Shown here in pieces: positions 31,080 through 51,444 of a stretch of DNA of 64,000 nt. The DNA is from Arthrobacter sp. B6 (GTDB taxonomy: Bacteria > Actinomycetota > Actinomycetes > Actinomycetales > Micrococcaceae). A program made the translations under genes and the position numbers. The notes below the pieces were generated by a model, which saw nothing but the letters and a program-made list of their open reading frames with translations, searched no databases and was not told the DNA's origin. The stretch lies in contig NZ_KV467168.1 in the NCBI RefSeq assembly GCF_001663775.1, positions 348,420-412,419 of the forward strand, written 5' to 3'. Positions within the stretch are counted from its first letter, which is position 1. Each line of letters begins with the position of its first letter.

Positions 31080-31092
31080 AAGGAGAGACTCG

Positions 31093-32456: not shown

Positions 32457-32465
32457 TGCCCAACG

Positions 32466-32500
32466 TCCGGGGAGAGCCTGAAAATCAGGCTCTCCCCGGA
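32466..32500 (+). other. Intercistronic mRNA hairpin between SBP and permease genes
   Basis: A perfect 16-bp stem (TCCGGGGAGAGCCTGA) closes on a 3-base loop (AAA). There is no T tract, and the permease ribosome site AGGGAGAG follows at once. Such elements commonly stabilise the upstream SBP message, giving more SBP than permease. It could also partly terminate transcription. Confidence 0.65.
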
Positions 32501-32511
32501 AGGGAGAGATA

Positions 32512-33444: not shown

Positions 33445-34301
33445 GCACCACAACCTCGCGTCGCCAAGGCCGGCCCGGCGCGGTCCTTCGGGCGGTTCCG
33501 GCCTGGGCATACGTCATCCTTTCAGCCGCAGTCGTTCTGCCGCCTGTCGCATGGATCGTCTCCACCTCGCTGAAAACCGCCTCGGATACCATCGAGTTCC
33601 CGCCACGGTGGATCCCGGACCCGCTCTCATTCGAGGGCTATGTTGGCCTGCTGACCTCAACGAACAGCCGGTTCTTTATTAACTCCCTCATCTACGCTGT
33701 GGGCTCTATCATTCTCGCGTTGGCGATTTCCATTCCTGCGGCATACGTTGCCACCAGGTACCGAAGCCGGCGCATGGAAACTCTGATGACCGGCATACTG
33801 GTGCTTTCGATGGTTCCCGCGATCGTGGTCTTCATCGCCCTGTACTCCATGTTCGTCAGAACCGCCTTGATCAACACCTACCCGCTGCTGATCGTTGTCT
33901 ACACGGCCATTATCTGTGGACAGACCATATTGTTCCTGCGCAACTTTATTGAGAATATCCCCGTTGAGATTGAGGAAGCGGCCGCGATCGATGGCTGCTC
34001 CCGGATACAGATATTGTGGCGAATCATCCTCCCGCTCATCCGTCCCGGTATCGCTGCCGTAGCCATCTTCATCTTCGTATTCGTGTGGAACGACTTCCTT
34101 GTGGGCACCGTCCTCGCCACGACAGAAGACATGAAGACCGTACAGAACGGCATAGTGCGATACATAACCACCGGCTTCGGTAGCTTCTGGGGACTCTTCG
34201 CCGCATTCATCGTCGTTGCTTTCATCCCCGTCCTCTCAATCTTCCTGGCGTTCCAGCGCTGGTTTGTTGCCGGCATGACGTCCGGTGGTGTTAAGGGATA
34301 A
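33441..34301 (+). CDS. Sugar ABC transporter permease, MalG type
   Basis: The 286-residue protein has MalG-type helices and the EAA loop EIEEAAAIDGCSRIQILWRIILPLIRPG, and ends in the common GGVKG tail. I chose the GTG at 33441, which overlaps the previous stop (GTGA) and has AAGGAAAG upstream; an open frame runs back to 33063 inside the previous gene but is only a shadow. It completes the importer channel. Confidence 0.93.
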   Translation: MSTTTSRRQGRPGAVLRAVPAWAYVILSAAVVLPPVAWIVSTSLKTASDTIEFPPRWIPDPLSFEGYVGLLTSTNSRFFINSLIYAVGSIILALAISIPAAYVATRYRSRRMETLMTGILVLSMVPAIVVFIALYSMFVRTALINTYPLLIVVYTAIICGQTILFLRNFIENIPVEIEEAAAIDGCSRIQILWRIILPLIRPGIAAVAIFIFVFVWNDFLVGTVLATTEDMKTVQNGIVRYITTGFGSFWGLFAAFIVVAFIPVLSIFLAFQRWFVAGMTSGGVKG

Positions 34302-34345
34302 CTGAAGCAAGAGTTCTCCCGCCGGGCCCAACCCAGAAAGCACGC

Positions 34346-34373
34346 CACATGACCGCTTCCGAGCGGTCATGTG
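34346..34373. terminator. Terminator hairpin after the ABC operon
   Basis: A 12-bp perfect stem (CACATGACCGCT) with a 4-base loop lies between the convergent MalG-type and VOC genes. It lacks a T tract, but its position fits an end point for both transcripts. Confidence 0.6.
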
Positions 34374-34471
34374 CGTGCCTGTGTAGAGCAGCTCACCGGA
34401 TCTGCAATCTTCTAGACCCTGGCAGGCCCCTCAGCCCGCGTCACAAGTCAATTTCTCCGGATGCGGATAGC

Positions 34472-34936
34472 TCAAGAGTTGTCGTTTGGCCGCCAGTCGG
34501 GCGGCTGAATCAGCTCCACGCGATTTCCGTCCGGATCGAGCAGGTAGATCAGCAGGCCTCCTGAAACCGGCCCCGACGTGGGGGCAACCGGTTCGGACAA
34601 AGCCCTGTACCCGAGCGCTGTCATTCTGGCGTAAACCTGGCGCAGGTCAATATCGGTAAAGGCAAGATGGGCAGTCCCCGGCTGCGCCTCTGATGGATTT
34701 ACAGCGGGTGGCGGATCCTCAACCTGGACCAGCTCCAAGTTGAAGGTCCCGTCACCCGTTGAGAGCATTAGGGCTTTGACCTTGACGTCGGGACGGCCGT
34801 AAAGTTCGCCGACGTATGGACCCGACGTCCACGCTTTCACGCGGGTAAGGCCAAGCCCTTCCACGTAGAACCGTGCGCTGCGCTCCATGTCCGTAACGTG
34901 CAGGGCAGTGTGATGATGTCGAATTGCAGTTTTCAT
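34472..34936 (-). CDS. VOC (glyoxalase/dioxygenase) family protein
   Basis: The 154-residue protein has paired beta-alpha-beta-beta-beta modules with probable metal ligands: His in HHTALHVTDM, Glu in FNLELVQV, His in GTAHLAFTDI and Glu in NRVELIQP. VOC proteins include lyases, epimerases and dioxygenases. Its place in a sugar cluster argues for an epimerase- or isomerase-like role, but none can be assigned. The ATG overlaps the stop of a short upstream frame. Confidence 0.88.
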   Translation of the reverse strand: MKTAIRHHHTALHVTDMERSARFYVEGLGLTRVKAWTSGPYVGELYGRPDVKVKALMLSTGDGTFNLELVQVEDPPPAVNPSEAQPGTAHLAFTDIDLRQVYARMTALGYRALSEPVAPTSGPVSGGLLIYLLDPDGNRVELIQPPDWRPNDNS

Positions 34937-34989
34937 TTCTCCCGCCTAAACATTCCCAGGGGCTTGAACTGGACCAAAAGAACAGACAT
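34933..34989 (-). CDS. Possible leader peptide upstream of the VOC gene
   Basis: An 18-codon frame (MSVLLVQFKPLGMFRREK) follows GGAG by eight bases, and its TGA overlaps the VOC ATG (ATGA). It is the third such arrangement in this cluster. Coding potential is uncertain. Confidence 0.3.
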   Translation of the reverse strand: MSVLLVQFKPLGMFRREK

Positions 34990-35151
34990 CAGGTCTTCTC
35001 CTCGTCGTTGCGGACCTAAACTTGGTCGGGGTTGGTCAGACACAGCCTTGAGGGGCCGTGCTGGTTTGCCTGGCATATGGGCATGCGTGGTGCCGCACTG
35101 CAAATAGGTGTGGCACGGGCCTCTACGATCGCGGGGCACGGTACAGGGGGT

Positions 35152-35901
35152 TCAGGTTCCTATTCCCAGGTGTGCCCCGCCGGCGACATCCAGAGACACT
35201 CCGGTGATGTAGCGGTTGTCGGGATCGGTCAGGAAAAGGATGGCGCGGGCGACTTCGTCGGGTTCGGCAAACCGGCGCATCGGCAGTTGCGCTGCCCTCT
35301 TCGCGCGGCTGGCTGCCGCGTCCGGGCTCGAATCGTTGTCAAACTGTGCCCGCATGGGTGTGTTCACTGGACCTGGGACGATGGCGTTGACGGAAATGCC
35401 TTGAGGTCCCAGCAGTTCTGCGAATGACCACATGATGTGCAGGACTGCGAGTTTGCTCGCATTGTAGGGCAGGTAGTTGAGGCGTGCTTCCTTGGCCGCC
35501 ACTGAGGATAAGACCACGATTGAGCCGGCCGTGCCGGACCCGAGCATTGATTTTGCTGTCTCTCGTACCATCGAGAACGTTGCAGAGGCATTGATCCTCA
35601 GAATGGAATCGAATTCTTCGGTGGTTGTCTCCATGATGTCGGGGGTTGTACCAAGCACTCCAGCTGCATGGACGAGGACATCGATGCGGCCATACCGCGC
35701 CGCGATGTCCTGCACAGTCGTTGCGCACTGTTGTTCCGAGGTGATGTCGAGGGGGTAGAAGGCGTCCAGGGTTTGGTCGTCTTTAGCGGAACGATCAGCA
35801 CCGATGACGGTGGCGCCGGCAGCTGTGAATGCACTGACGGCGGCATCGCCTATTCCTCCGCTTGATCCGGTTACGAGAACCACCTGGTCTTTGAGGCTCA
35901 T
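35152..35901 (-). CDS. Short-chain dehydrogenase/reductase
   Basis: The 249-residue SDR has the cofactor motif TGSSGGIG (11-18), NAG-type HAAG, catalytic Ser in VVLSSVA and YNASK with Tyr and Lys. The C-terminal IVPGPVNTPM and ITGVSLDVAGG are standard for classical SDRs. An acidic D near residue 37 (IGADRS) suggests NAD preference. It would oxidise or reduce a sugar or polyol in the cluster's pathway. Confidence 0.92.
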   Translation of the reverse strand: MSLKDQVVLVTGSSGGIGDAAVSAFTAAGATVIGADRSAKDDQTLDAFYPLDITSEQQCATTVQDIAARYGRIDVLVHAAGVLGTTPDIMETTTEEFDSILRINASATFSMVRETAKSMLGSGTAGSIVVLSSVAAKEARLNYLPYNASKLAVLHIMWSFAELLGPQGISVNAIVPGPVNTPMRAQFDNDSSPDAAASRAKRAAQLPMRRFAEPDEVARAILFLTDPDNRYITGVSLDVAGGAHLGIGT

Positions 35902-36028
35902 CGGTTCTCTCCGCTCTGGACTCCGCGCGGATCTCCTGCGGTCGGAACGCGGGCTGCTGGTTTCATGTCTAGTTCCTTACTTAAGGTTGTGCAATGGACG
36001 GTGGGCAGTGTTCAGGTTTTTGGTGACC

Positions 36029-37012
36029 CTACGGGGCGATCGTGGTGTCAGCGCCGGATGCTGCCAGGACCGCATCGGCGATTTGCGTGGCGCGGAGTGC
36101 CTGGGCGAACGTGACCGGAGGGGTTCCACCGGCGCAGAACTTCAGCGCCGTCTCTGCCTGGCGCAGGAAGAGGTCGGAGGGCTCGAAGGTCTTTTCGTAG
36201 TGGTCGCCCTCACGCTCCCACACCTGAAGGGAGTCGTTGGTCCAGAGCATCCGGCCTTCACTGGCCAGGACATCGATGGTGAGGCTCCAGTCGCCCTGAT
36301 TGAGACCTTGAGGTTCCTGCCAGGGAGACCAGTAGCTCTGCATGGTGAATACGACGCCCTCAGGAAACTCGAGGGTGGACACGACGTGCTCCGGTACCGG
36401 CGACCCATATAGGCTGCTGCTGGCGCTGGTGGCAAGTACTTTCGGGTCGCCGTCAAACCATGATGAGACTAATTCGATGGCGTGAATGCCGTTCACGACA
36501 GCGACGCCGCCCTCCTTCGGGTCAGCGCGCCATGAATTGACGTTCTGTTTGTGGGCGACCGAACGGACGGAAACGGCGATCACGTTCTTGTCCCTGATCC
36601 ATTGAGTGATCTGTGCGGCGGCGGGATGCTGGTGGAGCGTATACCCGACCATGAGCCTCTCGTTCACCCCGGAAGCGGCAGCCAGGACGGCAGCACCTTC
36701 CGTATCTGCGGCCACCGGCTTTTCAGTCAGCACCCGGAATCCCCGGTTCAGCAGATCTGCACATAGGACCGGTTGCACCGTGGTGGGTAAGGCTACGACC
36801 ACCAGGTCCAAATGTTCGGGGTGGAGTTCTGCGGTAGTGGGCATCAACTGTGCGCCGAGCTCCTGCGCGAGGGCGACGCCGCGCTCGTCCCTCTCCACAA
36901 GGACGGTGACCTTAGCACCTGCCGCGGTAAATGCCCGCGCGTGCCGTGATCCGGCCCAGCCGGCCGCGCCTACGACAGCGACGCGAGGAGCATTTCCCGC
37001 CCCGGTCATCAT
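36029..37012 (-). CDS. Gfo/Idh/MocA family oxidoreductase
   Basis: The 327-residue protein starts with VAVVGAAGWAGSRHARAF and carries TEKP (RVLTEKPVAADTEG) in place of the common CEKP, followed by VNGIHAIELVSSWF in the substrate domain. The start at 37012 overlaps the stop of a 15-codon leader. It has its own promoter and operators (37.07-37.12 kb) inside the long leftward cluster. It is one of three Gfo/Idh proteins in this cluster. Confidence 0.9.
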   Translation of the reverse strand: MMTGAGNAPRVAVVGAAGWAGSRHARAFTAAGAKVTVLVERDERGVALAQELGAQLMPTTAELHPEHLDLVVVALPTTVQPVLCADLLNRGFRVLTEKPVAADTEGAAVLAAASGVNERLMVGYTLHQHPAAAQITQWIRDKNVIAVSVRSVAHKQNVNSWRADPKEGGVAVVNGIHAIELVSSWFDGDPKVLATSASSSLYGSPVPEHVVSTLEFPEGVVFTMQSYWSPWQEPQGLNQGDWSLTIDVLASEGRMLWTNDSLQVWEREGDHYEKTFEPSDLFLRQAETALKFCAGGTPPVTFAQALRATQIADAVLAASGADTTIAP

Positions 37013-37056
37013 GTAATACCGCCAAAGGTCGGGCACGGGAGGAACCAGCTGATCAT
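37009..37056 (-). CDS. Possible leader peptide upstream of the Gfo/Idh gene
   Basis: A 15-codon frame (MISWFLPCPTFGGIT) follows GAAGGAGAG, and its TGA overlaps the oxidoreductase ATG. It resembles the start of the leader at 31093 both in peptide (MI-W--P-P) and in flanking DNA. Function is unknown. Confidence 0.35.
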   Translation of the reverse strand: MISWFLPCPTFGGIT

Positions 37057-37069
37057 CACATCTCTCCTT

Positions 37070-37115
37070 CGAGGTCGGTTGCAAATAAAGGTCGGTTGCA
37101 GGAAGGGTCTGTCAG
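37070..37115 (-). promoter_or_regulatory. Operator pair and weak promoter before the Gfo/Idh gene
   Basis: On the minus strand CTGACA (37110-37115) precedes two operator copies, TGCAACCGACCTTT (37087-37100) and TGCAACCGACCTCG (37070-37083), 17 bp apart. The -10 box is unclear. Twenty bases from the -35 box match those of the 31-kb promoter at 16 positions, so the two regulatory regions appear related by duplication. Confidence 0.55.
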
Positions 37116-37119
37116 GGGT

Positions 37120-38487
37120 CTATTCGGTTCGAATTTTCTTGCCCGGCGTTCTCCGCTTTCGGCGAGGAATATTTCGGCTTGTTGATCTGCTGCAGTCCGG
37201 CTCTGCAGTGGTTTCTTTAGTGCCTGGCTGTGCCAGTTGGAAGGCATCCTCGAGAAAGCGTGGCTTGTTGACCATCACGGCTCCTGCCGAAAGCACCAGG
37301 AGCCAGGCTCCGAGCATGACGAACGAGGGCTGCCAGCCGTCTCCTGGATGATGCAGCAGACCAAAAAGGAACGGGCCAACGCTTGCCAGGGCGTAACCGA
37401 CTCCTTGAGCAAACCCGGAGAGGATCCCTGAACCGGATTGCGTTCGTGTTCGCTTATTGATCATCGTGAACGCGTAGGAGTACACGCCTTGGCCAAGTCC
37501 GGCAATAACCACCCAGACCACTGCAGAGGCTGGTGGAGCAAAGATTATGCCCCCGTAGCCGATGGCGAATGCTACGACAAACAGGATTGCGACGGGTAGC
37601 GGACGAGGCATTCTCACTACTACCAGAGGCACAACCAAGGCGACAGGCAGGGCGAGGATCGAATAGAGCGCCAGCATGGATCCAGCGGTTCCCTGACTCA
37701 TTCCTCTGTCAATAAGAACAGCCGGAAGCCACGTGAGCGCCGCAAAAGTATTGCTTGAACACCCTGCGAAGACTAGTGCTACACCCCAGCCAATCGATGA
37801 TCTCCAGGGTTTGATCGCGTTCGTTGGCCGAGACCGCCCATCGTTGGCTGGTGATGTCGTGGAGCGGGCCACAGTCCGCTTGCCTGCGAGAACAATCAAC
37901 CAAGGCACCGCGGCGACCGCGCTGAAGGCCGCCCAAATGCCGACGGAGAACCGCCAGCCATAAAGATCTGCCAAGGGTATGGCAGATTGGGCGGCCACAG
38001 CGGTGCTGACGCCCAGGAGAGTTACGTGGAGCGCTGCGAGGATCCCGATTTTGTCGGGAAAGTACTTCACCAGCAAAGGCGGAACCACGACATTGACCAG
38101 CCCGATCCCGAGCATGGCGACCCAGGTGAACACCAAAAATGTCGGGGTATTCCACCCCAGTGCGCGGCCGACCTGACCAAGTGTCGTCAGCAGGATCGAA
38201 ACCAGTAGCAGGTGTTCCAGTTGGATTCGCCGGAGGAGCGGCATAGCCAGGAAGCCCATCGCTGCGAAACCCGCGGTCGGAAGCATCCCAAGGATCCCTG
38301 TCGTCACCGCATCGAGGGGAAGATCCCCGCTGATCGGATCAAGGAGGGGGGACACCGCCGAAACCGCTTCTCTGGCGCTGAACGCGACCAGCACGATACC
38401 GGCAAGCGCGGCGAGCCGGCCGCGTAGCGGTTGTCCCCCCGCTTCCCCGGCTTGTGGTCTGCCCTGACGGAGGCGAAGTAGAGCTAT
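37120..38487 (-). CDS. MFS transporter, CynX/NimT subfamily, unusual start
   Basis: The first GTG in frame is at 38394 and would give a 424-residue protein beginning inside the first membrane helix. The frame continues upstream as a helix lead-in (RGRLAALAGIVLVAF) with no ATG, GTG or TTG. At 38487 an ATA codon sits seven bases after GGAGG, exactly where a start would be expected. The rest is typical of the subfamily (SREAV-like ARE at the helix end, GILSGFAQGVGYALASVGPFLFGLLHH). Either ATA is used, or an ATG has mutated and only a shortened product is made. Confidence 0.7.
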   Translation of the reverse strand: MALLRLRQGRPQAGEAGGQPLRGRLAALAGIVLVAFSAREAVSAVSPLLDPISGDLPLDAVTTGILGMLPTAGFAAMGFLAMPLLRRIQLEHLLLVSILLTTLGQVGRALGWNTPTFLVFTWVAMLGIGLVNVVVPPLLVKYFPDKIGILAALHVTLLGVSTAVAAQSAIPLADLYGWRFSVGIWAAFSAVAAVPWLIVLAGKRTVARSTTSPANDGRSRPTNAIKPWRSSIGWGVALVFAGCSSNTFAALTWLPAVLIDRGMSQGTAGSMLALYSILALPVALVVPLVVVRMPRPLPVAILFVVAFAIGYGGIIFAPPASAVVWVVIAGLGQGVYSYAFTMINKRTRTQSGSGILSGFAQGVGYALASVGPFLFGLLHHPGDGWQPSFVMLGAWLLVLSAGAVMVNKPRFLEDAFQLAQPGTKETTAEPDCSRSTSRNIPRRKRRTPGKKIRTE

Positions 38488-38585
38488 GTCTGCACCTCCA
38501 ATTTTTCAGCAGGTTTGTTCAAGCCACAGTTCCGCAGTGCTCAAGGGTTGCGAGTGTTGTGCAGAAGGGCGACCTCGGTTGGTTG

Positions 38586-39578
38586 TTAGCTTCCGTTTAC
38601 TGCGTGGCTGGCCCATTCCCGGCCGGCTTGCTCTTCTGTGGGCAAACCGGAGGCAGCGAGAATCCGGTCGAGCAAGCGCTGGGTGTGGACAGCTTCCCGG
38701 CCTGAAGTAAGTGGCTGCGCCCTGTCAGCAACCCGGTCCAGGAAATGATGAACGGCGGCCGAAAATCCCAGAGTGTCTGTCGCCGTAGCCCAGCCATAGG
38801 CCTCGGCGCTGAGTTCCCGTGATGTGGTAACGCCCTTGACGGTGGTCGAAACCGTCTCCGGTGCCCTGACTTCGACGGTCTTCCCGTCGCCGTAGGCGTC
38901 CAGTTTTTCGTTCCATGCTCCTGCCGTGCGGGCTGCCATCAGCACTCCGGTGTTCCCGGTGCTGAAGCGGATGGTTGCTGCAACACCGTCTTCTTCCCAC
39001 GGGTCGTCACCGGCGGCATGGGCGGCCACATCCAGGGGCTCGCCGCCGCAGTACCAGCGGAGGAGATCGACCATGTGGATAGCGTTCTCGAATGTTGCAC
39101 GGTATTCCGATCCCGGGCGGTTTTTTTGGGCGACGCAGAAGGTGGCGCCTTTATCGCCGAAGACTTCCCGCCCGGCAGTGTAGACGGGCGCGTAGCGTCG
39201 GTTGAAGTCAACCATCAGGATCCGGCCCCGCTCGTCGGCGAGATCTGCCAGACGTTCTGCTTCATCGGTTTCCGGGGCTAATGGCTTTTCGCAGAACACA
39301 TCGACGTCACGGTTCAGGCACAGTTGGACGCCGTGGGCGTGCTCTGAGCGGGGCGTCAGCACGAAGACTGCATCCAGTTCCTGTGAATCCAGCATGTCCT
39401 CCACCGTTTTGTAGGCGGTGTTGAACCCCCAGCGCCGGACCAGGCTGCTTGGATCCTCACGCCGGGACACCAAGGCGGCCAGCTCAACGTCATCGCGTTG
39501 GACGAGGGTGGGTAATTGGGCGATGGTAGCGATGTTGCCTGCGCCGACAACTCCGACTCGGAGACGGGTGGTGTTCAT
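38586..39578 (-). CDS. Gfo/Idh/MocA family oxidoreductase
   Basis: The 330-residue protein has VGVVGAGNIATIAQLP and the signature FCEKPLAPETDEAERL near residue 95. FENAIHMVDLLRW provides the His/Asp of the substrate site. Its start overlaps the stop of the TIM-barrel isomerase gene by one base, so the two are coupled. Gfo/Idh plus AP-endonuclease-2-type isomerase is a recurring pair in pathways that oxidise a sugar hydroxyl to a keto group before further cleavage or isomerisation. Confidence 0.91.
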   Translation of the reverse strand: MNTTRLRVGVVGAGNIATIAQLPTLVQRDDVELAALVSRREDPSSLVRRWGFNTAYKTVEDMLDSQELDAVFVLTPRSEHAHGVQLCLNRDVDVFCEKPLAPETDEAERLADLADERGRILMVDFNRRYAPVYTAGREVFGDKGATFCVAQKNRPGSEYRATFENAIHMVDLLRWYCGGEPLDVAAHAAGDDPWEEDGVAATIRFSTGNTGVLMAARTAGAWNEKLDAYGDGKTVEVRAPETVSTTVKGVTTSRELSAEAYGWATATDTLGFSAAVHHFLDRVADRAQPLTSGREAVHTQRLLDRILAASGLPTEEQAGREWASHAVNGS

Positions 39579-40477
39579 CAGGCGTTCCTCACTTCAGCCA
39601 AATTAGAGAGCATTGAGCGCAGGACGGCGGCAGATTCCCGGAATCCGTCCTCGGGCGCAGGGAGGTCTTGCGGGTGCCAACGGTACTCGAGCTCGATGCT
39701 CAGCACGTCGTCGTAGCCATGCTTCAGCAACCCGGCGAGGATTTGAGGCCACGGAACGACGCCGTTTCCGACGACGCGGGACCGGACAGCGCGCTCAGAA
39801 GCGTTGACCCGGGCCGTTTCCGTGGCGCGGAAGGCCGCGTCGGGATCCGTGAAGACAAGGTCCTTCACGTGGACGTGACCGATCAGGTCACCTTGAACAG
39901 CGAGGGCTTGTTCATACTTTTCGTCGTGCGTGAATGTCAGGTTCGCCTGGTCGTACAGAACGCGGACGGCAGGGTGGTCTATTTCCCGGACCAGGCCAGC
40001 GGTATCCGCCGCGGTCTGGGTCATGGTACCGAAGTGGTTTTCCACGCAAAGGCGAACCCCGGCCTGGTCTGCAACGGGCGCGAGAGTTTCCAGTGCCTCG
40101 CGCAGTTTTGCCCAATGCGCTGCGTGGTCGTTGTCCCCGTGATGCCAGGATCCGGCGTAGACGCGGACCCGGTCAGCGCCGAGCAGGTGTGCGGTCTCTA
40201 TGGCGCCACGGAATTCATCGACTGCTGTGCGCCATTCGACATTATCCAGTGAGTTGATGGCGGTGGTGTAAGGCGTCAGACCCACGATGGGTACGCCTGC
40301 GCTTTCGGCTGCTCTCAATGCCTCCATCGCGGCGCGACGGTCACCTAACGGCAATCCTGATTTGTAGTCATTCTGGTAGATGACCTCGGCGGCGTCGAGC
40401 CCAGCGGCTTGGAAGAGATCAAGTGCTTGGGGAACCGTGTGGTCCGGTGTGCCTAGGGTGTGGCCGGCTAGCCGCAT
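39578..40477 (-). CDS. Sugar phosphate isomerase/epimerase-like TIM barrel (AP endonuclease 2 family)
   Basis: The 299-residue protein has the four-metal-ligand pattern of the family: Glu in LCVENHFG, Asp in VLYDQANL, His in GHVHVKDL and Glu in LSIELEYRW. Relatives include xylose-isomerase-like epimerases, IolE/IolI and 3-keto-glycoside cleaving proteins. The gene sits 3 bp from the VOC gene upstream. The reaction is not known. Confidence 0.9.
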   Translation of the reverse strand: MRLAGHTLGTPDHTVPQALDLFQAAGLDAAEVIYQNDYKSGLPLGDRRAAMEALRAAESAGVPIVGLTPYTTAINSLDNVEWRTAVDEFRGAIETAHLLGADRVRVYAGSWHHGDNDHAAHWAKLREALETLAPVADQAGVRLCVENHFGTMTQTAADTAGLVREIDHPAVRVLYDQANLTFTHDEKYEQALAVQGDLIGHVHVKDLVFTDPDAAFRATETARVNASERAVRSRVVGNGVVPWPQILAGLLKHGYDDVLSIELEYRWHPQDLPAPEDGFRESAAVLRSMLSNLAEVRNA

Positions 40478-40480
40478 TGG

Positions 40481-41059
40481 TTATGTCCTTTCTGAGATGT
40501 TTGGAGCTGCTGTCCAGTCCGCAGGACCGACCAGCCGGGGCGGTGCTGCGACGCGGGACCGGTCCACGATTTCCATCAGCAATCCCCACGGGGCGACGAA
40601 GTAGGTCCAGCGGTTGCCGGCTACGCGGGGGCTGTCGCCAGCGACTTCCTTGCGTTCACCAAGCACGCGTACCCCAGGTGTTTCCTGCAGCACTGCGATC
40701 GCTGCATCCACGTCGTCCACGACGAAGCACAGGTGGTGCCCGCCGGCGTCGCAGTGCCGCGGCGGCGTCTCGCGCCGCTCAGCGCTGCTCCACTCGAAAA
40801 GCTCGATGTTCAGGTTCGGTGGCAGGCGCAGCATCGCCAGTGTGAGCTTGGCATCGGCCGGGACTTCAAAGTTTGTGGGCATGAAGTCTTCGTCGGGTCC
40901 TCGTTCGGAGCGGTACAGCTCTTCAGCCCCCAGGACTTCAACGAAGAACCGGATCCCGTCCTCAAGATTGGGCACCGTTAGGCCGACGTGGTCTGTGTGC
41001 TGGAGTCCCGGTAGCCGCCGCAGTGTTCCTGCCGGGGCGCCGTTAGTCTGCGCGGTCAT
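40481..41059 (-). CDS. VOC (glyoxalase/dioxygenase) family protein
   Basis: The 192-residue protein shows the VOC fold with probable ligands His in HTDHVGLTV, Glu in NIELFEW, His in GGHHLCFVV and Glu in LLMEIVDR. The start overlaps the stop of the lacI-like gene by 4 bp. It resembles plant-type glyoxalase/bleomycin-resistance proteins in sugar clusters. Function is unassigned. Confidence 0.88.
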   Translation of the reverse strand: MTAQTNGAPAGTLRRLPGLQHTDHVGLTVPNLEDGIRFFVEVLGAEELYRSERGPDEDFMPTNFEVPADAKLTLAMLRLPPNLNIELFEWSSAERRETPPRHCDAGGHHLCFVVDDVDAAIAVLQETPGVRVLGERKEVAGDSPRVAGNRWTYFVAPWGLLMEIVDRSRVAAPPRLVGPADWTAAPNISERT

Positions 41060-42051
41060 TTGCGCGGTCCCGAGGTGGAGCCGCGGACCAGGAGTTCAGG
41101 TTCGAGGACGATATGGTCCACGGAGCCGTCCGCGTTCTGCTTCTCAGCCAGTTCAATGGCGATATGTCCCATGTCGGCGATGGGCTGCCGAACCGTGGTC
41201 AGAGGAGGGTTGAACCGGGCGCCGAGAGCGAGACCGTCGAACCCGATGACCGATACGTCCTCTGGTACCCGCACCCCGCGTTGGCCGAGCGCCGACATGA
41301 CTGCAAAGGCCACCATGTCATTTGCCGCGATGATGGCGGTCGGCGGATTGTCCATTTCGAGGAAATGTTCGGCGCCGCGCGTGCCCGCATCCAGATCCGA
41401 CCCGCTGTCGAGCACAACAGGCGTGCTGCCGCTCTCGGCGGACAGCTCCAGGTACGCGTCCATCCTGTCCTGGGCGGTGTGCGTTCCGGCGATGCCGGAA
41501 ACATAGCCGATCGAAGTGTGCCCGAGGCCATGCAGGTGCTCCAGTGCGAGCATGATGCCCCGCCGGCTGTCGACGGTGACGGTTGGGACCGCATCGTCCC
41601 CTTCCACCCGGTCGATCACCACCACCTTGTGGCCGAAGTCGAAGCGTTTCAGGGCCTCGGTATCGACCTTTGTGGAGGGCGCGACGATACCGAAGGGGGC
41701 ATACATGGCCTGCATGGCGGTGAAATATCCGTCGGTCTTGGCAGGGTCGCCATTGGTCACGCAGAGCAGCAGCTGGTAGCCGCGCTCGTCTGCCGCCTGC
41801 GTCATCGTCTTGGCAAGTTCTGCAAAGAACGGGTTGGTGATGTCCGGGACGATCAGCGGGATGAACGTGCTGGTCTTGGTCCGAAGCGCCTGGGCGAGCG
41901 GACTCATCGTGTAGCCGAGTCCCTCGGCGACCCGGAGGATGTGCTCGCGGGTTTCACTCTTCACAGCCTCAGGGCGTGAGAACGCCCGGGAAACCGTAGA
42001 GCGGTGGACACCGGCAGCTTTTGCAACGACGTCGATACTCAAGTCAGGCAT
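41056..42051 (-). CDS. LacI-family transcriptional regulator (third of three)
   Basis: The 331-residue protein has the helix-turn-helix IDVVAKAAGVHRSTVSRAFSRPEAV, a hinge (LAQALRTKTSTFIPLIV) and a sugar-binding domain ending TTVRQPIADMG and LLVRGST. I chose ATG 42051, with GGAGG nine bases upstream; it overlaps the end of the previous gene by 8 bp. Being inside the cluster makes it the likely repressor for the TGCAACCGATCTCA operators. Confidence 0.92.
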   Translation of the reverse strand: MPDLSIDVVAKAAGVHRSTVSRAFSRPEAVKSETREHILRVAEGLGYTMSPLAQALRTKTSTFIPLIVPDITNPFFAELAKTMTQAADERGYQLLLCVTNGDPAKTDGYFTAMQAMYAPFGIVAPSTKVDTEALKRFDFGHKVVVIDRVEGDDAVPTVTVDSRRGIMLALEHLHGLGHTSIGYVSGIAGTHTAQDRMDAYLELSAESGSTPVVLDSGSDLDAGTRGAEHFLEMDNPPTAIIAANDMVAFAVMSALGQRGVRVPEDVSVIGFDGLALGARFNPPLTTVRQPIADMGHIAIELAEKQNADGSVDHIVLEPELLVRGSTSGPRK

Positions 42052-43030
42052 GTTCTTTTCCTCCGTGCTGGTCGTCATAGGCCTGCCAGATGGGGCGCAT
42101 GACATTTTCGAGCTGGGCCAGCGTAGTCAGGCCCCGGAATCCATCTTCCAGCGTCCGGGCAACGCTCCGCACAAACGGATCGTAGAGAGGGTCGCTGTCC
42201 ACATTGATCTTGTCGACCTCCGTGGTGCCGTCCAGTGCCGTGAAAGTAGCTGTGCCGTCCGAATCAACGGAGGCGAATCCTGCCTCACCGACCGATGTAA
42301 AGCTGCAGTAGCGCTTAAGCGGAGAGCCAGGGAATGCGTAGCCGACCTCCACAATGGCTTCACGTCCTTGCGGTGTCGTGATGATGAGGCTTGCATGATC
42401 CTCAACGGCTTGGTGGTGAAGAACAGATGAGAGCCGGGAGTCCACATGTGCTGCCGACTCATCGCAGCCCCGGAGGAACAGATCAACAAAATGCGGTGCA
42501 AGGTTGGCCAGGCAACCCCCGCCCGCCCTCACGGGGTCGAGCATCCAGGGATTGCCATTTTCAAGATACCGGGATGGTGGACCAGCGATAAATGAGGTCC
42601 GCTGGTAAGTAGGCGGGCCTGCCTTGGCAAGCCATTTTTCGGTGGGTCCGCCGCGCTGGACCAGGGGGACAGTTACAGGCACTCCAGCTGCCTCGGCGGC
42701 CTGGCGCACGGCAGAAAGCTCGTTGAGGGAAGTGCCCAATGGCTTTTCGACGACGAACGGGATACCGCGCTCGATCAGGGCCATACACTTTTCGGCCATA
42801 CCGTCATGGGGACCAAAGACATAGGCCAGCCCGACGTCCGGGAGATCAACCAGCTTCTGCCAGTCGGCTTCAAGCGGTGCGCCCCAAACTTTGGCCAGCT
42901 CCTGCACCTGCACCAGGGAAACATCATCGTCACCGACCCCGATAACTTCGTGCTCTTCGGCAATCGCCTGCGCGCAGAGCGGAACATGCCAGTGCGAAGC
43001 ACCCAGAATGATTGTGCGTACGTGAGTCAA
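42044..43030 (-). CDS. Gfo/Idh/MocA family oxidoreductase, TTG start
   Basis: The 328-residue protein begins TTG (MTHVRTIILGASHWHVPLCAQAI), with GGGGG about ten bases upstream. It carries PFVVEKPLGTSLNEL and a substrate domain with LAPHFVDLFLRG. The N-terminal GASHWH lacks the usual GxGxxG glycine pattern, so cofactor binding may differ. It is first in the leftward cluster and directly follows the regulated promoter at 43.05-43.11 kb. Confidence 0.87.
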   Translation of the reverse strand: MTHVRTIILGASHWHVPLCAQAIAEEHEVIGVGDDDVSLVQVQELAKVWGAPLEADWQKLVDLPDVGLAYVFGPHDGMAEKCMALIERGIPFVVEKPLGTSLNELSAVRQAAEAAGVPVTVPLVQRGGPTEKWLAKAGPPTYQRTSFIAGPPSRYLENGNPWMLDPVRAGGGCLANLAPHFVDLFLRGCDESAAHVDSRLSSVLHHQAVEDHASLIITTPQGREAIVEVGYAFPGSPLKRYCSFTSVGEAGFASVDSDGTATFTALDGTTEVDKINVDSDPLYDPFVRSVARTLEDGFRGLTTLAQLENVMRPIWQAYDDQHGGKEHA

Positions 43031-43048
43031 CCGCGATACCCCCTTGTA

Positions 43049-43107
43049 TGAGATCGGTTGCTGAGATCGGTTGCAATAACACTATGGATGGTGGGAGAGT
43101 TTGTCAA
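43049..43107 (-). promoter_or_regulatory. Promoter with tandem LacI-type operators, leftward cluster
   Basis: On the minus strand TTGACA (43102-43107), a 17-bp spacer and TAGTGT (43079-43084) are followed by TGCAACCGATCTCA (43062-43075) and a second copy 13 bp further (43049-43062). The geometry equals that at 31.0 and 44.5 kb. The divergent KDPG-aldolase gene starts 70 bp away and may share the control. Confidence 0.7.
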
Positions 43108-43176
43108 TGGAACCAACACCCATAGGGGCCGGGACGCTGAAGAAGTTAGGGCATACCCGGCCAGAGAGAGGCCAGC

Positions 43177-43824
43177 ATGTATAAGAAACTTCGCACCCTG
43201 CAAACCATCGACGAGTCCGGGGCCGTCCTCATTGTGCGACTGGAGAGCGCCGGGGTTGCCGAGCGCGTTGCGGAAGCTGCCATCGCAGGAGGTTTCCGTG
43301 CCCTCGAAATCACCCTTTCAATTCCCGGCGCCGTAGACGTGATCCGTCGGCTCGCCGCCAAGCATGGACCCAGCGGCGTGGCCATCGGTGCCGGGACAGT
43401 ACTCGACGAGCACGCAGCGTACGAGTGCATCCGGGCCGGCGCCCAGTTCCTGGTCAGCCCTCAGCTGAACCCCGCGATGATCCGGACAGCGAACCGGTAC
43501 CAGGTACCAACCGTCAGCGGGGCCTACACGCCAACCGAGCTCATTAACTCCGCCGAAGCCGGCGCTGACATCCTCAAGCTCTTCCCCACCGAAGCCGGTG
43601 GCATCCCGTATGCGAAGTCCGTGCTGGCACCGCTGGCACACCTGCCGATCATGCCGGCAGGCGGCGTCACCCTTGAAAATGTCGGCGACTGGTTCGCGGC
43701 GGGCGTGGCCGGAGTCGGCGTGGGCAGCTACGTGACAAAAGCATGGCAACGCGACGGCGACTTCGCCCGTGTCACGGAGGCGGCCCGGGCGTTCCTCACA
43801 GCAGTAGCAGAGGCACGCAAATAA
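43177..43824 (+). CDS. KDPG/KHG-type aldolase
   Basis: The 215-residue protein has the class I aldolase features of Eda: Glu44 in ALEITLS, GAGTVLD, and Schiff-base Lys134 in DILKLFP, with Arg21 in IVRLES. These cleave 2-keto-3-deoxy-6-phosphogluconate or related acids to pyruvate and an aldehyde. The stop overlaps the ATG of the kinase gene. The exact substrate (gluconate or galactonate derivative, or 4-hydroxy-2-oxoglutarate) is open. Confidence 0.92.
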   Translation: MYKKLRTLQTIDESGAVLIVRLESAGVAERVAEAAIAGGFRALEITLSIPGAVDVIRRLAAKHGPSGVAIGAGTVLDEHAAYECIRAGAQFLVSPQLNPAMIRTANRYQVPTVSGAYTPTELINSAEAGADILKLFPTEAGGIPYAKSVLAPLAHLPIMPAGGVTLENVGDWFAAGVAGVGVGSYVTKAWQRDGDFARVTEAARAFLTAVAEARK

Positions 43825-44366
43825 TGTCCCCCCGCGTCTTTATTGTTATCGGTCCTGCCGGATCGGGAAAGACGACCATTGCCCAGCAGACAGCTCAACA
43901 GCATGAGGCTGCCTACCTGGACAAGGACCGGGTCAGTGGCCGCTTCGTCGAGTTCGCGCTAACCGCCACCGGGCATGATCCCAGCGACCGCGAGTCCAAC
44001 GACTACTATCGCGATCATTTGCTGCCCCTCGAGTATGAAACTCTCATGGATGTCGCGGGGATAAACCTGCGCCTCGGCCGATCCGTTGTCCTCGATGCTC
44101 CCTTCGGAGCCTATTTCCGACAACCAGACTATTTGACGCGTGTAGCAGAAGACTTCCAATGGCCGTCCCCCGTGATCACCGTGATACGCGTCCGGGTACC
44201 TCAAGACGTCCTGCGTACCCGGCTCACCCGGCGCGGACTGGAGCGGGACCAGTGGAAACTTGCCCACTGGGATGACTACTGGTCTGTATACGGCAGCCTG
44301 GAGTGCGCTTGGTCCGGAGTGGATTTCCAAGACTTCAACAATGAGGCACCCCTTCGAGTCGATTGA
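43824..44366 (+). CDS. P-loop kinase-like protein
   Basis: The 180-residue protein has Walker A GPAGSGKTT (10-18) and a DKDRVSG segment typical of AAA_33/shikimate-gluconokinase-like small-molecule kinases, followed by VVLDAPFGAYF. I chose ATG 43824, fused to the previous stop as TAATG. It may phosphorylate a sugar acid or deoxy-keto acid for the aldolase, which is an inference from coupling. No specific kinase family could be named. Confidence 0.8.
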   Translation: MSPRVFIVIGPAGSGKTTIAQQTAQQHEAAYLDKDRVSGRFVEFALTATGHDPSDRESNDYYRDHLLPLEYETLMDVAGINLRLGRSVVLDAPFGAYFRQPDYLTRVAEDFQWPSPVITVIRVRVPQDVLRTRLTRRGLERDQWKLAHWDDYWSVYGSLECAWSGVDFQDFNNEAPLRVD

Positions 44367-44505
44367 AGTGAACTCGCGCCGCGCATTCGGGGCACCGGCT
44401 CGCGCACGATGATCAACGGGGCACGGAGAAGTCACAGCCTTGACCCTGTCTTTGCTCCGAAGTAAAGACCTTTCATCCAAATTCGCGCTAGAACCCCACA
44501 AGACA

Positions 44506-44566
44506 TTGACAAGGATCACATGGGGTCCGTATCGTTGCTTGCAACCGATCTCAGCAACCGATCTCA
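44506..44566 (+). promoter_or_regulatory. Promoter with tandem LacI-type operators, MHS transporter
   Basis: TTGACA (44506-44511), an 18-bp spacer and TATCGT (44530-44535) are followed by TGCAACCGATCTCA (44540-44553) and a second copy at 44553-44566. The spacing between promoter and operators matches the 31.0-kb site. A leader of about 200 bp with no recognised gene follows before the transporter. Confidence 0.68.
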
Positions 44567-44766
44567 CTGACTAAGTGGAGGGGCTGGATTGCTTTCCTTC
44601 CCACGTGAAGGCAGGCAGCGCGTAGGCGCTGCGGCTCGGCTTTTGGCTTTAGCCGGCGGTTGTCCGGTTGAACCGGGTTGCAGCCGGGAGAGAGCCGCGT
44701 ACCGTTTCAGGTGGCCGGGAATATTCCAACACCCCTCCTAGTACACGGAAAAATATGGAGAGTTCA

Positions 44767-46176
44767 ATGAAGACCTCACAAGACGTCCCCGGCAGCCCGG
44801 GCCCTACCGATCTCAAGGCCCCCGGTCGTGGCTACCGCAACGTCGTGGCGGGCACGATCGGCCATTTTGTGGAGTGGTATGACTGGTACATCTACGGGCT
44901 CCTGGCAGCGGTGTTCTCATCACAGATATTCCCAAGCGATGACCCGTTCGCCTCCCTGGTCGCAGCACTGCTCACTTACGCGGTCGGGTTTGTTGTCCGC
45001 CCGCTCAGCGGCATCATCATCTCCCCACTGGCCGACCGCTTCGGCCGGCGGCTCATCCTGACGCTGTCCGTCTCCGGGATGGCGCTCGGCTCGCTCATCA
45101 TCGGCCTCACGCCTTCATTTGCGACCATCGGCTATGCAGCGCCGGTTCTCTTCCTGGTTGCACGCATCATCCAGGGCATCTCCGCCGGCAGTGAGGGTCA
45201 GAGTGCCATCGCGTTCATGGTCGAACACGCCCCCGCGAACCGGAGGGGCCTGTTCGGTTCGTTCACCAACATGGCGAGCGGTCTGGCGACGCTCGCGGCG
45301 ACCGGGGCCGCGGCAATGGTGACAGCATCCTTTGCCCCAGCGGACCTTGCCGCCTTTGGTTGGCGCATCCCGTTCGTCATTGGAGGCATCCTCGGTATAG
45401 TCGGCCTCATCTTGAGGGCCCGCGCACAGGAAACGCCTGAGTTTGAGGCAGAGTCCTTGGTTGATCAAAAGTCCGCTGCGGCCCGCCTGGTGGACCTGGT
45501 CCGCGAACACCCCAAGGCGCTGCTGCAGGCAGCTGCGCTGTCCGCCCCGGCGGTGGCGTACTACACCTGGGCCACCTTCCTTCCTACCTACGCAAAGCTC
45601 ACCACCGGCAGGGACCTGTCCTCCACCCTGGCCGGGAGCGTGATCGGGCTGGTCTTGCTCGTGATCATCGTTCCGGCCTGCGGATACCTTTCCGACCGCC
45701 TCGGCCGACGCAAAATCTTCCCCATCGTCGGCGCCATCGGCATGATCGTTCTCTTCTACCCCATGCTCCTGCTGCTGAACCAGCCCGGCTTCGGCGTGTA
45801 CGTTCTGGTCTCGGCATCCGGATGGGTGGTTCTCGGCATATGGCAGTCGGTCTACCCCACCATCCAGGCCGAACTGTTCCCAGCTTCAGTACGTGTATCG
45901 GGCATCGGCCTCGCACACCAAATCGTGATCGCCGTCTTCGGTGGCACCGCCCCGCTGATCGCCGCAGCGTTCGTCGGCGCCGGACAGCCCATGCTCGTCG
46001 CGGTCTACATGATCGCCATTGTCGCCCTCAGCCTCATCGTCTACTTCACCCTCCCGGAGACGGGCAACCGCGGCGACCGTGCCACCGTGGCGCTTGCTGA
46101 CCCTGAAGTACTCGAAGGCGAACACCTGCTCGCGAGCACCTCGCAGGCCACCGGCGCGGTGAAGCGTTCCCACTAG
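44767..46176 (+). CDS. MFS transporter, MHS (metabolite:H+ symporter) family
   Basis: The 469-residue protein has the MHS hallmarks GTIGHFVEWYDWYIYG at the first helix, RPLSGIIISPLADRFGRR in loop 2/3 and FMVEHAPANRRGLFGSF. Members import carboxylates such as shikimate, ketoglutarate, proline or sugar acids with protons. I chose ATG 44767 (GGAG six bases upstream) rather than ATG 44755 or 44668. With the KDPG-type aldolase nearby, a sugar acid is a reasonable guess. Confidence 0.9.
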   Translation: MKTSQDVPGSPGPTDLKAPGRGYRNVVAGTIGHFVEWYDWYIYGLLAAVFSSQIFPSDDPFASLVAALLTYAVGFVVRPLSGIIISPLADRFGRRLILTLSVSGMALGSLIIGLTPSFATIGYAAPVLFLVARIIQGISAGSEGQSAIAFMVEHAPANRRGLFGSFTNMASGLATLAATGAAAMVTASFAPADLAAFGWRIPFVIGGILGIVGLILRARAQETPEFEAESLVDQKSAAARLVDLVREHPKALLQAAALSAPAVAYYTWATFLPTYAKLTTGRDLSSTLAGSVIGLVLLVIIVPACGYLSDRLGRRKIFPIVGAIGMIVLFYPMLLLLNQPGFGVYVLVSASGWVVLGIWQSVYPTIQAELFPASVRVSGIGLAHQIVIAVFGGTAPLIAAAFVGAGQPMLVAVYMIAIVALSLIVYFTLPETGNRGDRATVALADPEVLEGEHLLASTSQATGAVKRSH

Positions 46177-46201
46177 GCACGCTGCCGCCCTGGGAAGCCG
46201 C

Positions 46202-46254
46202 GGCGGCTCGACCGGGCACAGGGGCGTGACGGCCCCGGGCCTCGTCGAGCCGCC
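46202..46254. terminator. Possible terminator after the MHS transporter
   Basis: Arms GGCGGCTCGAC (46202-46212) and GTCGAGCCGCC (46244-46254) are perfectly complementary, with an inner GC-rich segment that may fold too. There is no T tract. Confidence 0.45.
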
Positions 46255-46355
46255 CGACTCGTGAAGGGTGCGATCCCTTAAGCACGATCGAAATAGACAT
46301 TGCCGTATGAACGAAACAATTTTTCCATAGGCGCAGAACTAAAGGGGGTTTCCAC

Positions 46356-47177
46356 ATGAACCAAATGATTATTAACACGTTTTCCTACCTATGGTCATCT
46401 TCGGCAATTGATGCAATCACCGAATTAGTCGACAACGGGTATAAAACTTTCGAAGTTCCGGTTAGCTCCCCACATTGCTGGCCGGATGAAATATCCGCCC
46501 TCGAACGTGCGGCAATCCGTGAAAGACTTAATGAATATGGCGCCAAAATCAGGTCACTGAACGCCGGCGGATACGACATCAACCTGGCCAGCCCTGGCGC
46601 CAGCATGCGCCGCAAAAGTATCGAGCACATCACGTCGGTGATCGACTTGGCTGCAGCGTGGGATGTCCCCGAGGTTGTGATCTCCCCCGGCACAAGGCGC
46701 CCGATGATCTCACCGTCACTCGAGAAGACCTACGGGTGGATGTACGAGAGCCTGGAGAACCTGATTCCGCTTGCCAAACAGGCCGGCACACGGCTGCTTT
46801 TCGAAAACACCCCCTATTGCTTCACCCCCACCATCCAGGACCTGGCAGGGGTCGTAAGCACGATCAACGACGACTCAGTCAAGGTCGTGTACGACGTCGC
46901 CAACGCTGCGTACATCGGAGAGGATCCCGTAGAAAGCCTGCTCTCCCATCACGAATCGATTGGCCTGGTACACATTTCTGATACGGGCACGGACACTTGG
47001 GGCCACGATCCGATCGGCACCGGAGTAATCGACTGGAGCGGCCTGGGCAAGGCCGTCAGAGAAACGTGCGGAGTCAACAACGTTGTTCTTGAGATCATTC
47101 GCGAAGAGAACCCCGTCCAAGAATTTCAGAAGGCAATGCAGGACCTCAAAGATCAGGGCTGGGAACTGGCAAACTAG
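46356..47177 (+). CDS. Sugar phosphate isomerase/epimerase-like TIM barrel (AP endonuclease 2 family)
   Basis: The 273-residue protein has ligands Glu in LLFENTPYC, Asp in VVYDVANA, His in GLVHISD and Glu in NVVLEIIRE. The start has AAAGGGGG upstream. Its first 200 bases are poorer in GC than the neighbours, which may reflect acquisition from elsewhere. With the SDR downstream it forms a small unit likely acting on a sugar or keto-sugar. Confidence 0.9.
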   Translation: MNQMIINTFSYLWSSSAIDAITELVDNGYKTFEVPVSSPHCWPDEISALERAAIRERLNEYGAKIRSLNAGGYDINLASPGASMRRKSIEHITSVIDLAAAWDVPEVVISPGTRRPMISPSLEKTYGWMYESLENLIPLAKQAGTRLLFENTPYCFTPTIQDLAGVVSTINDDSVKVVYDVANAAYIGEDPVESLLSHHESIGLVHISDTGTDTWGHDPIGTGVIDWSGLGKAVRETCGVNNVVLEIIREENPVQEFQKAMQDLKDQGWELAN

Positions 47178-47345
47178 CCCGATGTCCGGTGACGCGGCGC
47201 GGTAGCGGAGGATCCGCAGGAAAGTGTGTAAATAGTTCACATTGCGAATCGATCATCAACGCCAGGAATGTGGCAGGTCATGATTTGCATGAGATTTGCA
47301 GCAGCAATTTTTGGCATGTGAACCGCTGATAAAGGAGTATGAGCG

Positions 47346-48137
47346 ATGAGAGCTTTGGTTAGTGGCGGAAGCAGCGGTATAGGAGCAGCAACCTGCCTCA
47401 GAATCGCAGAGGCGGCTCTGGCTCGTGGCGTGCACCCGATGATCGCCGTGGCAGGACACGATTCGAACGGCAACCAGGAACAAGTCGTTCGTTCAATCCA
47501 GTCAATGGGGGGTACCGCTATCGCGTTGGCAGGCAACCTTGGCGACCCAGAGGTGCCAGGTAAATTGGTAGAAGCCGCGGTAACCGAATTTGGCGGGTTG
47601 GACGCACTCGTAGCAAACGCGGGAATCGCAAACCCCGGCGCCATCTGCGACGTGTCCCTTGAAGACTGGGACGAAATGTTCGCCGTCAACCTTCGCGGCC
47701 CGTGGCTTCTCGCGAAAGCAAGCCACCCACATTTGAGGCAGAGCCGCGGATCCGCCTGCTTCACCTCTTCCATGTCTGGTCAGGTACCGCATGCTGGATC
47801 AGGCGCCTACAGCCCCAGCAAAGCCGCGCTGACGATGCTGGCCCAAACACTTGCGCTGGAATGGGCACCCGAAGGAATTCGCGTCAACGTCGTCTCACCA
47901 GGCATGACCCACACGCGGTTGACCGAAAAAATGTATGCCGATCCCCAAATCAAAAAGGCAAGGGAAAACATCATCCCGTTGGCAAGAGTTGGAGAACCCG
48001 TGGACATTGCGAACGTGATCGAGTTCCTTGTAAGCCCGCTTTCGGGGTACGTCACGGGGCAAGACATCTGCGTCGATGGCGGCTTTACCAAGTCCATTCT
48101 TAGCCATATCCCTGGTCGACCCAGCTCTAAATCCTGA
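47346..48137 (+). CDS. Short-chain dehydrogenase/reductase
   Basis: The 263-residue SDR has SGGSSGIG (6-13), NAG in LVANAGIAN, Ser in TSSMSG and YSPSK, with NVVSPGMTHTRL and VTGQDICVDGG. It is classical, most likely NAD(P)-linked sugar or polyol dehydrogenase. The start follows AAAGGAG by nine bases. Confidence 0.91.
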   Translation: MRALVSGGSSGIGAATCLRIAEAALARGVHPMIAVAGHDSNGNQEQVVRSIQSMGGTAIALAGNLGDPEVPGKLVEAAVTEFGGLDALVANAGIANPGAICDVSLEDWDEMFAVNLRGPWLLAKASHPHLRQSRGSACFTSSMSGQVPHAGSGAYSPSKAALTMLAQTLALEWAPEGIRVNVVSPGMTHTRLTEKMYADPQIKKARENIIPLARVGEPVDIANVIEFLVSPLSGYVTGQDICVDGGFTKSILSHIPGRPSSKS

Positions 48138-51316: not shown

Positions 51317-51337
51317 AATAATTTCCTTTCGACCAAA

Positions 51338-51374
51338 ACATCATATCATGCACATCGTATGTAGTATATGATGT
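51338..51374. promoter_or_regulatory. AT-rich inverted repeat between GntR and SBP operons
   Basis: ACATCATAT (51338-51346) and its complement ATATGATGT (51366-51374) are separated by 19 bases, and another TCATATCATG and CATCGTATG are nested nearby. The location between divergent genes suits a GntR binding region overlapping both promoters. Confidence 0.5.
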
Positions 51375-51444
51375 ACGAGAAGGGCCGGACGGGGATCATT
51401 TCCCGCTAATCCATTGACCCGCTTCATCCATTGAGAGGAACGCA

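Follow-up and report, generated by a model that had tools for sequence, protein, structure and literature searches.

The segment at 31025-48137 of a 64,000-nucleotide stretch of Arthrobacter sp. B6 DNA carries a conserved set of genes for sugar conversion. The whole stretch (the window) covers C1:348420-412419 of the 4.66-Mb genome (8 contigs), which places the cluster at approximately C1:379.4-396.6 kb. The set may well encode a semi-phosphorylative Entner-Doudoroff-like route, a reading that we put close to an even chance, in which oxidation by Gfo/Idh/MocA enzymes, elimination by an AP_endonuc_2 barrel (TIM1), isomerization by a VOC protein (VOC2) and the action of a kinase and an aldolase would be combined. 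The genes are clustered far beyond chance: 50 of 58 related loci have all six core genes side by side, and three exact copies of a 28-base element are present.

Pfam searches confirmed the gene set reported in a first-pass annotation of the sequence, namely three GFO_IDH_MocA proteins (Gfo1, 36029-37012; Gfo2, 38586-39578; Gfo3, 42044-43030; all on the minus strand), two AP_endonuc_2 TIM barrels (TIM1, 39578-40477, minus strand; TIM2, 46356-47177, plus strand), two glyoxalase/VOC proteins (VOC1, 34472-34936; VOC2, 40481-41059; both minus strand), two short-chain dehydrogenases (SDR1, 35152-35901, minus strand; SDR2, 47346-48137, plus strand), a KDPG/KHG-type aldolase (43177-43824, plus strand) and an AAA_33 P-loop protein with a predicted role as sugar-acid kinase (Kin, 43824-44366, plus strand). 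A LacI-family regulator (41056-42051, minus strand), two major-facilitator (MFS) proteins and a CUT1-type ABC importer were confirmed in the same way. As the annotation had stated, a canonical glycosidase is lacking: the Pfam scan gave no glycoside hydrolase family match among the 20 proteins at 31065-51316. None of the Gfo, TIM or VOC proteins of the cluster reached an NCBIfam equivalog cut-off. Together with the eliminase/dehydratase-type site predicted for TIM1 from its sequence, and with synteny and operators that join the genes into one set, this supports the earlier proposal of an uncharacterized pathway that oxidizes and then cleaves or isomerizes its substrate.

Loci for comparison were obtained by scanning a genome collection for relatives of TIM1, which gave 92 stretches; the best 80 were taken, yielding 78 loci. 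The 58 loci with a TIM1 of at least approximately 51% identity formed the reference set. TIM1 is thus present in 58/58 by construction, the other presences are lower bounds because of contig ends, and at least two strains contribute two loci each. The loci nearest to the source cluster belong to Arthrobacter and Pseudarthrobacter. The core consists of Gfo3, VOC2, TIM1, Gfo2, the aldolase and the kinase, with individual presences of 57 for Gfo2, 55 for VOC2, 54 for the aldolase and 53 each for Gfo3 and the kinase; the LacI gene was found in 51. The core, with several optional partners, is retained in Arthrobacter, Streptomyces, Microbacteriaceae, Nonomuraea, Amycolatopsis, Actinomyces and others. 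Core and importer were also found on two plasmids, from Herbiconiux (isolated from a Salvia flower) and Rhodococcus (loci L133 and L141), and therefore the cluster may move as a cassette. Some genomes seem to hold two copies of the cluster, as judged from the locus pairs L004/L026 and L012/L032, which carry the same strain names, and from genome G025 with two TIM1 matches.

Gfo3 (GFO_IDH_MocA_C3, 2.6e-10) is the first gene of the core operon and overlaps the LacI gene (LacI 7.9e-10 and Peripla_BP_3 5.8e-34 for a longer open reading frame; ATG at 42051), which in turn overlaps VOC2 (Glyoxalase_4, 2.2e-13). The stop codon of TIM1 (AP_endonuc_2, 3.7e-43) overlaps the start of Gfo2 (2.8e-24) in TGATG, and on the other strand the aldolase gene ends within the first codons of the kinase gene. 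Inspection of the sequence placed the gene starts at 31200 for the solute-binding protein SBP1, 37012 for Gfo1, 42051 for LacI, 43824 for the kinase and 44767 for MFS2.

A repeat search identified the 28-base element, TTGCAACCGATCTCAGCAACCGATCTCA, upstream of the ABC importer (31025-31052, plus strand), in the intergenic region from which Gfo3 and the aldolase gene diverge (43049-43076, minus strand) and upstream of MFS2 (44539-44566, plus strand). These three copies in the window are exact, and no match was obtained in 100 shuffles. The element consists of GCAACCGATCTCA twice at a 13-base spacing. A third half-site lies at 31067-31079 beside the importer operator, and a fourth, degenerate copy of the element upstream of Gfo1 (37070-37101, minus strand) comprises one half-site with 2 mismatches and a second one read in the sequence. 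The exact 13-mer half-site occurs seven times genome-wide and all seven copies are located inside the cluster; three copies with one mismatch were found outside, compared with six matches for the reversed control. When 59 genomes treated as relatives were compared, the 8 with the element were also the 8 with TIM1, and all 25 of the element matches listed there fall within 10 kb of TIM1.

In the 58 loci, operator-like sites were counted at up to one substitution with the reversed pattern as a control, which resulted in 274 sites versus 14. Most of them (223/274) lie between -300 and +20 of the start of a cluster gene. They accompany first genes, namely the aldolase (49/54) and Gfo3 (45/53), which have the divergent region in common, as well as MFS2 (32/44), Gfo1 (10/21) and SBP1 (9/17), and hardly any stand before internal genes, with none for TIM1 (0/58), Kin (0/53) and TIM2 (0/35). 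In some relatives (e.g. L053) the variant GCAACCGATTGCA is a near-palindrome with a CG centre, and a palindrome with such a centre is described as the usual form of LacI-family sites in PMC4052901. The repeated element is probably the control switch of the gene block. The LacI protein is predicted to bind it, and a pathway metabolite would release the protein. The element would then cover four transcription units: the importer; Gfo3-LacI-VOC2-TIM1-Gfo2(-MFS1); MFS2-TIM2-SDR2; and Gfo1-SDR1-VOC1. Cotranscription of TIM2, SDR2, MFS1, SDR1 and VOC1 is suggested by strand and gene order.

The predicted active site of TIM1 carries the assignment of the elimination step. Residues E146, H148, D176, H201 and E262 are invariant across 58 close sequences, and in a 35-sequence alignment that includes distant relatives E146, D176, H201 and E262 remain invariant and H148 is conserved in at least 90%. 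The structure model is confident (predicted local distance difference test score, pLDDT, 94.5), and H148 sits two residues past the strand-5 metal ligand E146. In the O-glycoside eliminase AtOGE, the metal is bound by His132, Asp163, His189 and weakly by Glu233, and His134 is catalytic (PMC10628242). The spacing in TIM1 is equal, with a Glu where AtOGE has the first His. In this first ligand TIM1 resembles AsbF, which has Glu in an E-T-H motif, and the histidine that corresponds to H148 is also present in the aligned AsbF and IolE. TIM1 thus shows the residue pattern of AP_endonuc_2 eliminases/dehydratases, in which a histidine two positions after the strand-5 ligand accompanies four metal-binding residues, and is predicted to be a keto-sugar beta-eliminase/dehydratase. 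Profile matches included AsbF (3.8e-22), IolE (2.7e-18), with which TIM1 has an H-x-G-T-x-x-Q-T stretch in common, and YcjR (6wn6, 3.4e-12). The best profile match was Art22, which has E-N-Y and therefore Tyr at the histidine position. Two points weigh against the proposed role of TIM1: the fold ranking favours epimerases and isomerases, and the eliminase call, as predicted from the sequence, depends on a single residue pattern.

The first-pass annotation had listed the two TIM barrels together as isomerases; they are not equal partners. Strand 5 of TIM2 (Pfam 2.2e-37) reads E150-N-T152 without the eliminase histidine; a psicose-epimerase-like barrel has E-T-L at this place. Because the histidine is present in TIM1 and absent from TIM2, elimination or dehydration is predicted for TIM1 and epimerization for TIM2. 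TIM2 was found in 35 loci, in 33 of them together with SDR2 (Pfam 3.4e-57) and in two alone, and SDR2 never occurred alone in this set; on the Herbiconiux plasmid an SDR2 match was obtained without a TIM2 match.

In VOC2, H24, E86, H109 and E163 are invariant in 40 sequences and could be four metal ligands in the positions used by VOC isomerases/epimerases such as methylmalonyl-CoA epimerase and glyoxalase I, after which they are assigned. VOC2 is accordingly predicted to be a metal-dependent isomerase/epimerase and may act in enolization. The Gfo proteins of the cluster retain the E-K pair and the short-chain dehydrogenases the Y-x-x-x-K motif, which presumably have their customary functional roles.

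The aldolase narrowly passes the KDPG/KHG model TIGR01182 (157.3 bits, cut-off 156.05), which agrees with the KDPG-type assignment made earlier. What the annotation had missed is that it is the sole KDPG/KHG aldolase match in a genome where the 6-phosphogluconate dehydratase Edd (TIGR01196) gave a single match of 250.6 bits, with the cut-off at 708.25. As the aldolase is unique and no Edd passes, a 2-keto-3-deoxy acid should come either from this cluster or from neighbouring sugar-acid genes, and the latter are not conserved with the cluster. The substrate of the aldolase is therefore probably made by this cluster. Its K134 (in ILKLFP), presumably the Schiff-base lysine, aligns with KDPG-aldolase-derived chains and is invariant in 54 sequences. 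K16 of the kinase (AAA_33 2.8e-15 for a longer open reading frame) is likewise invariant in 54 sequences. This P-loop protein is without a close model; the GntK-type gluconokinase model TIGR01313 gave 23.4 bits (cut-off 113.75).

In the proposed route, an NAD-dependent Gfo/Idh enzyme would oxidize a ring hydroxyl of the substrate. Gfo2, whose gene overlaps that of TIM1 here, may make the ketone used by TIM1, which would eliminate the beta substituent, and VOC2 would isomerize the product. Later redox steps may fall to Gfo3 and to SDR1, which an AroE-like enzyme would replace in other loci. Oxidation, elimination and isomerization would thus stand in for the usual sugar-acid dehydratase, and the predicted kinase and KDPG-type aldolase would convert a 2-keto-3-deoxy acid to pyruvate and triose phosphate. 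TIM2-SDR2 and Gfo1-ABC may be optional feeder modules. The interchangeable importers include MHS-type MFS, CUT1 ABC and TRAP types, which suggests as substrate a sugar or cyclitol that is small and probably acidic. Both the substrate class and the order of the steps are predictions. The fuller version of this proposal is a previously undescribed Entner-Doudoroff variant for an abundant but unrecognized acidic sugar or cyclitol, carried by many actinobacteria on a plasmid-borne or chromosomal cassette. In it the dehydratase would be replaced by redox chemistry: oxidation to a ring ketone, metal-dependent beta-elimination, VOC isomerization and re-reduction would supply a 2-keto-3-deoxy acid to a KDPG aldolase and to a P-loop kinase that would found a new family. 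This version is offered tentatively and seems to us rather doubtful.

The enzyme families would also suit a deglycosylation such as that of levoglucosan (LgdA-B1-B2-C) or of 3-keto-glycosides. A Gfo protein would then form a 3-keto sugar, elimination and hydration would be the work of TIM1 and TIM2, a further Gfo protein would carry out the reduction to glucose, and kinase and aldolase would serve a side branch. The families Gfo, TIM, TIM and Gfo are those of the four-enzyme levoglucosan route outlined in PMC7676230 and PMC10066097, and the eliminase histidine is present in TIM1. However, with the LgdA model NF052479 (cut-off 650) Gfo2, Gfo3 and Gfo1 scored only 41.5, 24.4 and 20.1 bits, and two genes outside the cluster gave better levoglucosan-dehydrogenase scores of 370.2 and 336.2 bits, also below 650. 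Since TIM2 was not seen in 23/58 loci, the hydratase would often be missing, and as no Edd passes, glucose would have no classical route to the KDPG aldolase. We consider this explanation unlikely. The higher-scoring dehydrogenases belong to other Gfo/Idh and AP_endonuc_2 groups at C1:2182921-2186665 and C1:1757906-1761618.

A cyclitol route appears equally improbable. Here, a Gfo protein would make a keto-cyclitol, TIM1 would dehydrate it in the manner of IolE, VOC2 would epimerize, the AroE-like enzyme or short-chain dehydrogenase would reduce, and ring opening outside the listed set would feed the aldolase. The AsbF and IolE matches of TIM1 and the stretch common to TIM1 and IolE fit this scheme, as do the replacement of SDR1 by an AroE-like protein and a Chloroflexi locus with IolM-like and IolO-like proteins below cut-off. 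Against it stand the scores for IolG (TIGR04380, cut-off 355; Gfo2 95.4 bits, Gfo1 36.0 bits, Gfo3 not listed) and IolE (TIGR04379, cut-off 290; TIM1 51.3 bits, TIM2 22.8 bits). Moreover, no IolD-type protein was found among the cluster proteins scanned, and proteins above cut-off are encoded outside the cluster for IolD (C1:245499-247439 and approximately C1:1524097-1525854) and IolB (C1:1517062-1517823). Finally, several unrelated sugar genes might merely have a neighbourhood and a regulator in common; the aldolase would then belong to general metabolism or to the adjoining sugar-acid genes. Gfo1, VOC1, MFS1, TIM2 and SDR2 do vary between loci, and a galactonate-dehydratase-like gene lies at 48571-49707. 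For the core this is already contradicted by its retention across the loci and on two plasmids, by the element marking first genes, and by the occurrence of the adjoining block in 0/58 loci. We consider this explanation very improbable. Membership in the myo-inositol, levoglucosan and classical Entner-Doudoroff pathways was rejected on the equivalog cut-offs, the location of IolD and IolB, and Edd.

The semi-phosphorylative route proposed here differs from the known pathways compared. The levoglucosan pathway of Bacillus smithii and Paenarthrobacter likewise has Gfo/Idh enzymes, AP_endonuc_2 barrels and an ABC importer, with predicted oxidation followed by beta-elimination, but the cluster lacks an LgdA by cut-off and has two VOC proteins, an operator system, the P-loop kinase and the KDPG aldolase. 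The 3-keto-glycoside eliminases AtOGE and DgpBC/CarBC, which work with dehydrogenases of the Gfo or FAD type, have in common with TIM1 the barrel and the histidine two past the strand-5 ligand (His132/His134 in AtOGE), whereas TIM1 has Glu for the first His and the route of the cluster ends in an aldolase. Myo-inositol catabolism (IolG, IolE, IolD, IolB, IolC, IolJ) also combines a Gfo dehydrogenase, an IolE-like barrel and then a kinase and an aldolase; the aldolase of the cluster is of the KDPG type rather than IolJ, and iolD and iolB lie elsewhere. In C-glycoside systems the barrel is accompanied by a small DgpB/CarC-type partner subunit. None was seen among the 20 proteins in Pfam scans, a direct DgpB/CarC sequence search not having been part of the analysis, and the analogy to C-glycosides drawn earlier was not strengthened. 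The semi-phosphorylative Entner-Doudoroff/unsaturated-uronate branch comprises a short-chain dehydrogenase, a 2-keto-3-deoxygluconate (KDG) kinase and a KDPG aldolase. The exit of the cluster is similar in its SDR, kinase and KDPG-type aldolase, but none of the conserved genes encodes a sugar-acid dehydratase from any known family and the kinase is a P-loop protein rather than PfkB. The ycj cluster of E. coli encodes the dehydrogenase YcjS, the 3-keto-glucoside 4-epimerase YcjR and the LacI protein YcjW. It resembles the cluster in its Gfo enzyme, AP_endonuc_2 barrel, LacI regulator and CUT1 importer; to our knowledge, it has no VOC protein, kinase or KDPG aldolase. An oxidize-and-eliminate route joined to a semi-phosphorylative exit was not found in the literature searches made in an open-licence library.

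The conserved core comes with dedicated importers and a control element, which suggests that it serves the breakdown of a nutrient from soil or plants that the metabolic map does not yet show. The 28-base element could be used as a reporter for the inducer. As the VOC and P-loop members are without an assigned sugar function, functions for several enzyme families might be assigned from one screen of substrates.

Around the core, several of the genes listed in the first-pass annotation proved to be accessory. Overall, the interpretation given there was partly supported. SDR1 (adh_short_C2, 2e-53) was present in 44 loci, and in others an AroE-like dehydrogenase takes its place: 41 loci have SDR1 only, 8 the AroE-like protein only, 3 both and 6 neither. 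One or the other thus occurs in 52/58, and among the six without either, L019 is cut by a contig end. The AroE-like protein (e.g. L040:14688-15509) has its closest structure in the shikimate-dehydrogenase family (4k28, 1.3e-49); a further match was 5-ketofructose reductase (8.3e-25). The exchange suggests that either family can perform one redox step at a hydroxyl group of a ring or a keto sugar. VOC1 (Glyoxalase, 1e-17) and MFS1 (37120-38394, minus strand; MFS_1, 2e-20) were each found in 16 loci, all of the Arthrobacter group. Gfo1 (GFO_IDH_MocA 2.8e-15 for a longer open reading frame) was found in 21; it accompanies SBP1 in 19, with Gfo1 alone in 2, SBP1 alone in 2 and neither in 35.

The ABC importer (31200-34301) was found in 21 loci. 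The earlier annotation had rightly joined an importer to the cluster, but left it outside the coordinates given for the unit, to which it belongs and which is therefore longer. It comprises SBP1 (31200-32456, plus strand), with SBP_bac_1 at 1.6e-38 for the longer open reading frame listed from 31065 and the ATG at 31200 lying after the operator, and the BPD_transp_1 permeases PermA (32512-33444, plus strand) and PermB (33453-34301, plus strand; listed from 33063, start provisional). MFS2 (44767-46176, plus strand; listed from 44668), a metabolite:H+ symporter-type importer, scored 333.5 bits with TIGR00883 (cut-off 443.45) and was found in 44 loci. MFS2 is the only one of the two importers in 30 loci and the ABC importer in 7; 14 have both and 7 neither. 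A Chloroflexi locus carries a TRAP importer (Pfam). The distant Chloroflexi and Nitriliruptor loci L055 and L057 lack the P-loop kinase and KDPG aldolase, and the neighbours of their TIM1 relative include a PfkB kinase, a DapA-family protein and another TIM barrel; the PfkB and DapA-family pair is possibly again a kinase plus a 2-keto acid aldolase.

Next to the cluster, a separate sugar-acid block (48571-54627) encodes an MR_MLE protein, a KdgD/DapA-like protein, a GntR regulator and a second ABC importer. The MR_MLE protein is galactonate-dehydratase-like (263.1 bits, cut-off 311). The MR_MLE, DapA-like and GntR genes were found in none of the 58 loci, and the block is outside the unit. Within the importer operon, a perfect 16-nt inverted repeat with a 3-nt loop is located at 32466-32500 between SBP1 and PermA, and is perhaps an mRNA hairpin that sets the level of the solute-binding protein above that of the permeases.

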